Positions 30,299 through 39,947 of a stretch of DNA of 56,094 bases are shown here, one piece after another. Positions within the stretch are counted from its first letter, which is position 1, and every line of letters starts with the position of its first letter. The position numbers were made by a program, and so were the translations under genes. The notes under the pieces are model-generated. The model was not told the DNA's origin. It saw only the letters and a list, made by a program, of their open reading frames with translations, and ran no database searches. The stretch lies in contig CALMQS010000007.1 in assembly GCA_937871285.1 (NCBI GenBank), positions 1 to 56,094 on the forward strand, written 5' to 3'. This DNA comes from an uncultured Sphingobacteriales bacterium. GTDB taxonomy: Bacteria; Bacteroidota; Bacteroidia; Chitinophagales; Chitinophagaceae.

Positions 30299-30461
30299 GA
30301 ACTTACATCCATACTCTTACTTCTTCCTTCACTTTACCCCTGATAACATGTCTTTACAAAGGTACCTGAATTTTTACTTATGCTTATGAAATTGTCCTAA
30401 TGGATAAATACGGGTAGTATTATACCCTAAAAAGATGTACCTTACAATAAATTGATTTGTG

Positions 30462-37692: not shown

Positions 37693-38301
37693 TCATAATG
37701 ATAACGGTCTATCGTTCTTTACACATTCACCCACATGCGTTACCTCCCTTACATCAATTAGATGCGCGGCTTCTACCAGCTTTATCAAATGGATGCATAC
37801 TGTTAGCGGGGCTGTTATAGCGGTAGTATCACTGTTCAGGGCATTCTCCACTACCTGCTCCCAGCACTGCAGCCAGTTACCGAGCGACCGGTAGCTGAAA
37901 AACTGCTGAAACACCCGGTAGGGATCACTATATTCTTTTTCAGACAGGCATCGCGGAAGCTCCTTCCACACATCAGCGCTAACATAATGGCTGCAATAGT
38001 ATTTTTTATGGAAGAGCTCTTCTTTTTTAATGGTAACCACGCTGTGCTTCTTATACCTCAAAGCATAAGCGGCTTTTATAAGCGAGCGGATGAGCTTGCT
38101 GTATAACAGCACATCGCCGGGCGGATATTCTTTGTACACGCCTGCCCCACTGGCATGGCATACCAGCTTTTTGATGAGCCTGCGAAAATGGTGCACATGC
38201 GCTTCGGCAAAGAAGTGGGCGATTACCTGGTAAGGGTCTGTAATGCATTCGCAGAGCCAGCATTGGGTTGTAAACGGGTCTTTGTGGTGTTTGGTTTTCA
38301 T
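37693..38301 (-). CDS. Uncharacterised protein, partner of the nuclease-like gene
   Basis: 202 residues, no signal peptide, no membrane helix. Rich in Cys and His (CWLCEC near residue 14-19, VHHFRRLIKKLVCH) with a helical middle (DVLLYSKLIRSLIKAAYAL) and a conserved-looking YKKHSVVTIKKEELFHKKYY segment. No family recognised. It starts 51 nt after the upstream BECR-like gene on the same strand, so the two are probably one transcript and it could be the immunity/antitoxin or a cofactor protein. The GC content is clearly higher than in the AT-rich DNA around it. The 189 nt downstream contain only a weak hairpin (GACCGT 37658, ACGGTC 37704). Confidence 0.6.
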   Translation of the reverse strand: MKTKHHKDPFTTQCWLCECITDPYQVIAHFFAEAHVHHFRRLIKKLVCHASGAGVYKEYPPGDVLLYSKLIRSLIKAAYALRYKKHSVVTIKKEELFHKKYYCSHYVSADVWKELPRCLSEKEYSDPYRVFQQFFSYRSLGNWLQCWEQVVENALNSDTTAITAPLTVCIHLIKLVEAAHLIDVREVTHVGECVKNDRPLSL

Positions 38302-38352
38302 CTTTTTATTTTTAGAGTGAGGCTTAGACAGACCTATAAGGTTTTAAAAACC

Positions 38353-38838
38353 TTACAGGGCTTGCTGTTGCGGCGGTATTACGCCGGGGAAGGCGGTGAT
38401 GATCTCCCCGCCTGTGCTGGTAATGACCGTAATGGTGGTTACGGTATTGCCCGAAGTATCGTGCCCGAGCGGCGTGCCGGTATCCAGTACCCGCTGCAGG
38501 TGAGGGCTGCACGGAACAGGCTCTGGCGGTTGCTGGCAGGCGTCTCTTATACAGGCTACAATTTGCGGTATAGGTATGGTAAACTTGCCGGTAAGCGGGT
38601 GACGCGGCACTTTGTAATAATGGCGTTCCAGTATATGCGCCAGGGCTTTGCTGCTTAGGTACGAGCCTTTGCGCAGCAGCTTTTTACGGTGCTTTACGGG
38701 CAGTTGCCATATAAGCCCCTCCTGCATTTGCTGCAGCCAGCTTTGGGTATCTGCCAGCAGGAACAGGGCTTGCAGCCATTGGGTTTCGTTAAAATGGATG
38801 TTGGCGCTTTGTGCAGGTGTGGCAACGGCGTTGTTCAT
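38353..38838 (-). CDS. Small protein resembling BECR-fold nuclease toxins
   Basis: 161 residues, no signal peptide. After a helical N-terminal half comes a pattern seen in barnase/EndoU/colicin-E5-like (BECR) toxin domains: a helix with SSKALAHILERHY (His and Arg-His), then KVPRHPLTGKFTIP, a second helix, and a run of beta strands closing with TTITVITSTGGEIITAFPG. His, Arg and the C-terminal T-A-F-P would be the catalytic candidates. The assignment rests on pattern recognition and is not certain. A long structured leader (38869-39000) precedes the ATG at 38838, and an uncharacterised partner gene follows. Confidence 0.6.
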   Translation of the reverse strand: MNNAVATPAQSANIHFNETQWLQALFLLADTQSWLQQMQEGLIWQLPVKHRKKLLRKGSYLSSKALAHILERHYYKVPRHPLTGKFTIPIPQIVACIRDACQQPPEPVPCSPHLQRVLDTGTPLGHDTSGNTVTTITVITSTGGEIITAFPGVIPPQQQAL

Positions 38839-38868
38839 AACAAAAAAGTTTTAGGCTGGCACCCGCAC

Positions 38869-39000
38869 AAAAAAGGCGTGGCGCTCAACTTACCGCTCCG
38901 AGGTACTGGTATACCCACACACGAATAAGAGAGCCCACGCCGTAACATGGGCATTCTGCTTATCATCTCGTGTGTTCAAAAATTACCAGTTTTCGGAACG
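38869..39000 (-). ncRNA. Structured leader RNA with terminator-like hairpin
   Basis: On the minus strand three stacked helices form a long hairpin: CGTTCCGA (39000-38993) with TCGGAGCG (38901-38894), ACTGGTA (38990-38984) with TACCAGT (38911-38905), and ACACACGA (38975-38968) with TCGTGTGT (38924-38917). The first helix needs a G-U pair on this strand and would be a C-A mismatch on the other, which supports minus-strand RNA. Its apical loop holds a smaller hairpin GCCCATG/CGTGGGC (38952-38946, 38939-38933). A fifth element, GGCGTGG-GCTC (38941-38931), can pair with GAGC-G-CCACGCC (38886-38875), followed at once by six T (38874-38869): a terminator that competes with the small hairpin and forms a pseudoknot with the long one. 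It ends 30 nt before the nuclease-like gene. Confidence 0.6.
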
Positions 39001-39082
39001 AGATTCAAAGCGAATTGCTTCAAATAATTTTATGAAGTAATCGCGAAAATATTATTTCAAAATAAAGATAAGTAATTATTTT

Positions 39083-39116
39083 AATTCACGGTCATTTATA
39101 ACCGTGAATTTTTTTT
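39083..39116 (+). promoter_or_regulatory. Perfect 10-bp inverted repeat: XRE operator or terminator
   Basis: AATTCACGGT (39083-39092) and ACCGTGAATT (39101-39110) are separated by 8 nt and followed by a T-run on the plus strand. As a hairpin it looks like an intrinsic terminator, but no gene ends upstream of it on that strand. It lies between the XRE regulator gene and the divergent leader RNA, where an operator would be expected. Both readings are possible. Confidence 0.6.
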
Positions 39117-39152
39117 AAAATAGTTGAACCTTGATTTACAAATTGGGAGGGA

Positions 39153-39395
39153 ATGGATAAAAATAGTATAGAGTTAATGAAGAATGCTTTTGGTAAAAAC
39201 TTGCAAAGAATAAGAACCACTAAGCGCAAATCATTGTTGGAGCTGTCATATAACTGCTCCATAGACGAAAGTAAAATCTCAAAAATTGAACATGGAAAAT
39301 TTGACATTAAAATGTCAACGATATTTGAATTAGCAAGAGGCTTGGAAATACATCCTAAAAAGCTGCTGGATTTTGAGTTTGATTTCGAGGATTGA
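39153..39395 (+). CDS. XRE-family transcriptional regulator
   Basis: 80 residues, a single HTH_3 domain: GKNLQRIRTTKRKSLLELSY, NCSIDESKISKIEHGKFDIK, TIFELARGLEIHPKKLLDF. This is the small XRE type that controls toxin-antitoxin or mobile-element genes. The ATG at 39153 has GGGAGG very close upstream. It is divergent from the leader RNA/nuclease-like operon, with an inverted repeat in between, and probably regulates that operon and itself. Confidence 0.9.
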   Translation: MDKNSIELMKNAFGKNLQRIRTTKRKSLLELSYNCSIDESKISKIEHGKFDIKMSTIFELARGLEIHPKKLLDFEFDFED

Positions 39396-39947
39396 ATTTT
39401 ATATTGTAAAAGGGTAAATATTGGCGATTATTCTTGTCTATACAGTAATTTATTTCATTCGCTATCCTGAGATAAAATCAATAGAGCACTCTACATTCAG
39501 CAATAGACCTAATGGATAACCAGAGGTTTCAATAATTGCCAATTTCGGTTTCATTTAAAATAAAATAATCTTCTATTAATATTGGCTTACCTGTTGTTCT
39601 TGAAAAAAAAGTCAATGAGTTCATTCAAGACACTAGTTAGATCCGGTGTTACATTCAATTATGACCACAGGATTTTATTTACAAAATCAATATCAATCGG
39701 CGGGTGTTTGTCCTGTCTGGTTTATTGTTCTTTTAATTGTATTGCATACAATAGATACCGATCAAGTAATTTTAAGTGCAAATGAGAATTATTGAGATGC
39801 CATTGGTCATATTGTTACACAAAGGAACATAAGGTGTAACGGAAACGGACATGCACAGCATCGTCATAAAAGATATATAATTGATTATTAATTACTTATC
39901 ATGTTGGCATAGTATGTGGCTGAAGTCCTCAGAGAATTTGAATATAT
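39396..39947. other. 552-nt AT-rich intergenic region
   Basis: I see no supported gene, RNA or repeat. A 67-codon frame at 39582-39785 has an erratic composition and no recognisable signal, and I consider it chance. The region separates the XRE cassette from the broken permease gene. Confidence 0.5.

Follow-up and report, generated by a model that had tools for sequence, protein, structure and literature searches.

Which kind of element lies on the minus strand at 39000-38869 of the window, ahead of a gene for a 161-residue protein (gene A)? The window is the whole stretch analyzed, 56,094 nt of contig CALMQS010000007.1 (assembly GCA_937871285.1) from an uncultured Sphingobacteriales bacterium. 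A sequence-only reading had placed five complementary segment pairs there, and all five were found where it had put them. Comparison with relatives indicates that this leader is probably a transcription attenuator, predicted to be transcribed and to have two conserved and likely exclusive folds. It belongs to a new family of RNAs, whose architecture varies the known scheme of transcription attenuation in a new way. The earlier view that it matches no known RNA class was borne out: a scan of the window with Rfam 15 gave no gathering-level match in the leader region and only a tRNA elsewhere, and the best sub-threshold match in the leader region had an E-value of only 0.3. No description of this leader RNA was found among the open-licence papers that the literature searches listed.

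The minus-strand leader of the window folded better than chance (z -5.6; 0 of 200 shuffles equally good). The plus strand also folded well (z -5.1; 0 of 200 shuffles), so single-sequence folding was indecisive and the strand was settled by relatives. Thirty-five leaders, the window's among them, served to build a covariance model (R1). R1 gave 243 matches (53 + 100 + 90), of which 13 were removed: 11 at chance level, L088, which runs into the end of its contig, and L065 (3' half diverged). After matches shorter than 150 nt were dropped from the remaining 230, there were 194 distinct copies and 142 representatives at <88% identity; these counts exclude L050 and L094, two copies that R1 missed. 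The representatives were aligned by plain MAFFT without fitting to structure (alignment A6).

In the aligned pair cells of the 142 representatives, read on the minus-type strand, G-U outnumbered A-C by 1100 to 221, and by 914 to 152 when helix P1 was left out. With both strands examined, 116 of 134 loci had their longest downstream open reading frame (ORF) on the strand of the RNA. Both results agree with the strand proposed earlier. In 114 of 133 loci the longest same-strand ORF began no more than 400 nt after the RNA, and in 58 no more than 70 nt after it; of 128 decided cases, 98 had their longest upstream ORF on the opposite strand. Judged from this gene arrangement, the leader RNA usually seems to open its own transcription unit. 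PMC9723704 gives TAnnTTTG as the Bacteroidota -7 box consensus. In 78 of the 142 representatives the 60 nt preceding the RNA contained an exact TAnnTTTG, compared with a mean of 6.9 (maximum 15) in 200 shuffles, and 68 of these 78 boxes were located 19-31 nt before the first position of the model. In the window the two corresponding features are as follows.

39044..39051, minus strand: predicted -7 promoter box, TATTTTCG, with 1 mismatch to TAnnTTTG and hence not an exact copy.
39023-38867, minus strand: leader RNA core, matching R1 at 171.2 bits, the window being one of the 35 model sequences.

Two sets of helices can be drawn in this core. The predicted ON state is a long antiterminator hairpin (Pouter, P3 to P6) with a further hairpin, P8, behind the terminator. 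The predicted OFF state is a 5' fold (P0, P2) followed by a terminator with its T-run (T1 to T3, enclosing P7). The earlier reading had omitted P0, P2, P7 and P8, and of the terminator stem it had only T1, without T2 and T3.

39000-38993/38901-38894, minus strand: Pouter (ON).
38990-38984/38911-38905, minus strand: P3 (ON); the 5' strand could also pair loop to loop in the OFF state, and the 3' strand sits in and beside the P7 loop.
38975-38970/38922-38917, minus strand: P4 (ON).
38964-38959/38929-38924, minus strand: P5 (ON), with weak covariation; its 3' strand coincides with the T3 5' strand.
38952-38946/38939-38933, minus strand: P6 hairpin (ON), seen in folding, the own/foreign partner test, the alignment and the branch events described below.
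38889-38855, minus strand: P8 hairpin (ON), located behind the terminator, with the T-run in its loop.
39018-39008/38961-38951, minus strand: P0 (OFF), whose 3' strand overlaps the 5' strands of P5 and P6.
39004-38999/38970-38965, minus strand: P2 (OFF).
38995-38990/38982-38977, minus strand: P2x, inner part of the P2 hairpin, whose loop contains the P3 5' strand.
38941-38935/38881-38875, minus strand: T1 (OFF terminator).
38934-38931/38886-38883, minus strand: T2 (OFF terminator).
38929-38924/38894-38889, minus strand: T3 (OFF terminator).
38915-38912/38905-38902, minus strand: P7 hairpin in the terminator loop (OFF).
38924..38941, minus strand: shared middle strand, forming the 5' side of T1 to T3 and the 3' side of P6 and P5.
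38875..38894, minus strand: 3' side of the terminator (T1 to T3, OFF), which doubles as the P8 5' side (ON).
38874-38869, minus strand: terminator T-run of six T, read in the sequence.

The two sets compete for the same bases. The terminator and P5/P6 are mutually exclusive because the 5' side of the one is the 3' side of the other; P0 excludes P5/P6 because it occupies the P5 5' side and the edge of P6; and P8 excludes the terminator because it uses the terminator 3' side. P2 overlaps Pouter and P4 only slightly, but no linker separates its strands from the adjoining strands of those helices; on geometric grounds, therefore, the full ON duplex and P2 should not form together.

Next, covariation in both folds was examined in alignment A6. 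In the ON state 86.6% of the cells were paired, and both-sided change was found in 31 of 38 pairs (25 of 31 without P1); there were 739 both-sided cells compared with 226 after shuffling, and none of 500 shuffles reached as high. In the OFF state without P0, 90.3% of the cells were paired, with both-sided change in 20 of 30 pairs and 313 both-sided cells compared with 92 (0 of 500 shuffles as high). Sliding the partners by 1-3 columns removed most of the covariation signal. The terminator helices T1 to T3 were paired in 92.8% and 88.6% of cells, and a T-run of at least four followed T1 in 117 of the 142 representatives.

The pairing of each strand with its own partner was then compared with pairing to foreign partners in 2000 permutations, which ignore relatedness. 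Pouter gave -5.54 kcal/mol with its own partner and -0.98 kcal/mol with foreign ones (z -41), and P0 gave -8.25 and -5.42 kcal/mol (z -16.1), four control stretches ranging from +2.0 to -0.5. The z values of the other helices were -38 for P4, -30 for P3, -14.6 for P2, -11.3 for P7, -10.9 for T1, -9.0 for P6, -5.7 for P2x and -3.9 for P1. P8 had a z of -14.8 (141 representatives), and a control stretch further downstream had a z of -1.0. Compensatory branch events, that is, both-sided changes counted by parsimony on a FastTree tree, were compared with eight slid controls, with P8 and P2x not separately included. The events (largest control in brackets) numbered 76 (9) for Pouter, 72 (4) for P3, 69 (12) for P4, 23 (7) for P2, 13 (3) for T1, 10 (3) for P7, 8 (1) for P6, 7 (1) each for T2 and T3, 5 (2) for P0 and 4 (3) for P5, so that all 11 state-specific helices counted on the tree exceeded their largest slid control. 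Many covarying pairs were thus present in homologues, where their absence would have spoken against the structure, and the attenuator geometry with a competing terminator proposed earlier agrees with two helix sets that are both conserved and covarying.

Conservation differed between strands. The shared strand was the most conserved (GGCGUGGGC 0.96, CUUAUU 0.94), whereas Pouter and P4, which are used in one state, were the freest (0.56-0.59). This contrast looks like a signature of switching. The P6 5' strand was conserved to 92% although it is free to covary, and is a candidate recognition site.

The order in which the helices may form was followed by folding the window transcript at increasing lengths, its start being assumed at 39037. 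The minimum free energy fold held P2 at 75 nt; P0 had joined it at 90-110 nt, and from about 140 nt onward the fold held the ON hairpin. In constrained folds of the representatives, ON was the more stable state in 112 of 142, by a median of 6.0 kcal/mol. In the proposed mechanism, P0 and P2 would be the first to form as the RNA is transcribed and would sequester the antiterminator's 5' strands. If a signal held this 5' fold, the middle strand would pair with the 3' side (T1 to T3), RNA polymerase would stop at the T-run, and the next gene would be off. If the 5' fold were released, the 3' strands would invade through the complementarity of the P2 and P7 loops (P3); P3 would nucleate strand exchange, pairing would spread into Pouter and P4, P5 and P6 would close, and the terminator would be blocked. 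The read-through RNA would then close P8.

The distribution of the leaders was investigated in genome scans. The scan of the taxonomic family to which the window belongs used stricter filters and scored the 10 best first-look candidates per genome, which makes its copy numbers lower bounds. There R1 matched 126 of the 294 genomes sampled, in 66 of 101 genera and with up to 9 matches per genome at least. Of 296 genomes sampled from the phylum it matched 33, which represent several families of the class and include 5 genomes outside it with weaker scores. All 100 loci fetched from hits of the family scan matched R1, these loci having been chosen for their hits. When species genomes were scanned with a pattern, 105 stretches came up; among the 80 listed, record titles assigned 78 to Bacteroidota, 1 to a Chlorobiota metagenome-assembled genome (MAG) and 1 to an uncultured bacterium. 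Leader DNA alone matched many relatives, often far from gene A, and the window's own genome carries a second copy (L079) ahead of an extracytoplasmic function (ECF) sigma factor gene. Some copies are plasmid-borne or have mobilization genes close by. Equal-scoring leaders were present in L238, L252, L307 and L309 (Chryseobacterium, Flavobacterium and an unclassified Bacteroidetes MAG), and the ORFs after them were equal in length and began alike, as judged from the first 75 residues, which suggests recent horizontal transfer. In L065 (3974-4123) the 5' half of the leader is retained; this leader precedes an ATPase gene and then a gene that is RloB-like by eye.

The genes behind the RNA were examined in a census of 177 downstream ORFs at 139 loci, taken on the RNA's own strand only. 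A cluster of response-regulator-like and small ORFs followed the RNA in 31 of the 139 loci, ECF sigma factors in 28, thioredoxin/TonB proteins in 26, relatives of gene B (the gene behind gene A) in 23 and gene A in 14, in addition to others. The Pfam scan covered 138 of the 177 ORFs, with duplicates removed and genes A and B limited to three each, and found Sigma70_r2 in 27, Response_reg in 16, Redoxin in 15, TonB plug in 8, HATPase_c in 2 and SymE in 2. By eye, the downstream genes in Bacteroidales and some Flavobacteriia look secreted or surface-located. No common metabolic pathway was seen among the downstream genes examined. At L222 a B-like protein behind the RNA carries a HEPN domain, and at L089 and L218 the proteins behind it are nucleotidyltransferase-like by eye. 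ORFs of about 70-95 aa stand directly behind the RNA at L157, L153, L188, L198 and others, often before a response regulator; the four of this family that were scanned had no Pfam match. At L133, L137, L150, L064 and L164 the small ORFs that separate the RNA from the next gene fall into one cluster, and those of L133 and L137 have a common C-terminus, AKKPKNPV.

In the window the leader is followed by two genes.

38353..38838, minus strand: gene A, 161 aa, downstream of the leader, with a weak match to an RNase-toxin-like fold and no Pfam family.
37693..38301, minus strand: gene B, 202 aa, predicted all-helical, with no Pfam match.

Within the same genus, some genomes carry several copies of the A/B unit, mostly with the leader (37693-39073 in the window), at about 83-92% DNA identity and with different flanks. 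Just after a tRNA-Lys, an 18-nt imperfect direct repeat (30390-30407 and 39502-39519, 89%) flanks a segment with primase, NikA-like, relaxase and AbiEii-like genes as well as the leader and genes A and B. It possibly marks the ends of a mobilizable element, although short repeats in two copies often arise by chance.

Helices missing from close relatives that keep the downstream genes would have spoken against the structure. Of the 15 gene-A loci fetched, 12 matched R1. L050 did not, although its gene A is intact, and has a different leader that R1 did not recognize; of the other two negative loci, L054 breaks off within gene A and L062 contains just part of it. The leaders of L049 and L055 were 53% identical to that of the window, whereas the first 300 nt of gene A were 93% identical, and these leaders still matched R1 at 77 and 82 bits. 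In L063 gene A is disrupted, and the leader is of the L049/L055 type (79 bits). The L050 leader scored 10.6 bits (E 1.4) with the R1 filters off. By hand, however, the same layout could be drawn at 5393-5223 on the minus strand: a P2 of GUCUCG/CGAGAC, a 13-bp arm between the P2 loop and a 3' strand, a P6 of 7 bp, and a 10 + 6-bp terminator that ends in a T-run and has its 5' side in common with P6. Its ON and OFF folds had -65.6 and -62.3 kcal/mol, and its longest perfect inverted repeat (arms at least 40 apart) was 14 nt, compared with at most 11 nt in 300 shuffles. Gene A can therefore have a leader that is nearly unrelated in sequence with the same layout, in one case drawn by eye; since this layout recurs and was missed, R1 undercounts. 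L094, a fragment at a contig end, has a leader that shares 96.5% identity with the L050 one. Among close relatives of gene A there are three leader types (that of the window, the 53%-identical one and the one that R1 does not recognize), and leaders seem to have been exchanged while gene A stays.

Several results weigh against a two-state attenuator. P5 and T3 were weak in the own/foreign test (z -2.9 and -3.1, from permutations that ignore relatedness), column-wise events were few for P0 and P5, and the evidence for P5 appears to be mainly conservation. P1 is unsupported because its 5 branch events equal its largest control of 5. Pairing was imperfect, at 80% of cells for P4, 88% for Pouter and 71% for T2, and 25 of the 142 representatives had no T-run of four. 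That P2 and the pair Pouter and P4 exclude each other is a steric argument, since they have few bases in common. OFF was equally or more stable in 30 of the 142 representatives, and the default state may for this reason differ between copies. R1 found no leader before gene A in L050 and L094, and no conserved ligand pocket was recognized in the leader family.

Two of the alternatives are special cases of the attenuator and differ from each other in the trigger. An RNA-binding protein or a partner RNA might recognize the P6/T1 strand or the loops, which we regard as a plausible minority view. It would account for the conserved P6 5' strand and for the complementarity of the P2 and P7 loops, but no such protein or RNA was identified, none having been sought, and conservation of the middle strand is also explained by its two pairing partners. 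That a small molecule bound by the 5' domain triggers the switch, as in a riboswitch, is rather unlikely. A 5' domain that folds first and is followed by a terminator platform would suit a riboswitch, and cyclic di-GMP (c-di-GMP) riboswitches are likewise one RNA class ahead of diverse regulators. However, the internal loop of the P2 hairpin, which holds the 5' strands of Pouter and P4, is hypervariable, unlike an aptamer pocket, and this argues against a ligand pocket there; the downstream genes also do not belong to one pathway, the usual though not universal mark of a riboswitch. Ribosome-mediated attenuation through a leader peptide shares the layout of terminator and antiterminator and is very hard to credit, because ATG-started leader ORFs are avoided: complete ORFs of at least 6 codons that start with ATG were found in the first 105 nt of 14 of 142 representatives, compared with 72 of 142 after one base shuffle.

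The remaining alternatives dispense with the switch. The earlier reading described a pseudoknot topology. Its competition between terminator and hairpin stood, but the crossing helices are better read as two alternative states than as a standing pseudoknot, since the bases common to T1 and P6, T3 and P5, P0 and P5/P6, and P8 and the terminator preclude coexistence. A single standing pseudoknot, or a short terminated RNA acting in trans with the downstream gene incidental, is improbable on these grounds; P3 could pair loop to loop with P2 and P7 formed, and the terminated RNA is predicted to measure about 160-190 nt, but the closely following same-strand ORF speaks against a trans-acting RNA. 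The inverted repeats, and the copies near mobilization genes or on plasmids, would fit a DNA-level element such as a recombination site or transposon end. The strand-specific G-U bias, the promoter boxes, the T-run and the same-strand ORFs downstream make this highly improbable. The suggestion of an RNA antitoxin for gene A, as in type III toxin-antitoxin systems, had to be given up almost entirely: many copies precede sigma factors, response regulators and TonB proteins, no tandem repeats were present (0 arrays in 38300-39500), and gene A belongs to no Pfam family.

Among known systems, intrinsic-terminator attenuators are the closest to the attenuator proposed here. The trp and pyr leaders of Bacillus are of this kind, with an anti-antiterminator, an antiterminator and a terminator. 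They share with the present leader a place in the 5' untranslated region, competing helices, a terminator with a T-run, and an early 5' fold that opposes the antiterminator. In contrast, the present family is without an Rfam match and serves many unrelated genes, its 5' fold and platform are joined by loop complementarity, an additional hairpin (P8) is predicted to form on read-through, and Pouter and P4 are hypervariable yet mostly complementary. The B. subtilis rplJL leader is reportedly another example of such an attenuator (PMC4538822). The leader resembles c-di-GMP riboswitches in being one RNA class ahead of many unrelated genes including regulators, but differs in having no Rfam match in its region. 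With type III toxin-antitoxin RNAs it shares a structured RNA and a terminator before a gene with an RNase-like fold; unlike them, it lacks tandem repeats, and many copies precede non-toxin genes. The Flavo-1 motif is likewise an orphan structured element of Bacteroidota, and PMC9723704 reports its hits as indistinctly sense or antisense, whereas the leader family is one-stranded and its region in the window reached the gathering score of no Rfam family.

A broader proposal is put forward tentatively, at somewhat less than even confidence. The leaders may form a phylum-wide, as yet uncatalogued class of signal-sensing switches, in which sigma factors, response regulators, transporters and toxin-like genes would be under one cellular signal, two hairpins able to kiss would refold fully into one long duplex, and the hypervariable arms would be a private pairing code for each copy. 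If the switch works as read here, it points to a signal sensed by RNA in many Bacteroidota. It would be a compact system with two natural compensated folds, whose refolding path during transcription is open to testing, and the covariance model and the helix map make the questions of signal and refolding directly testable.
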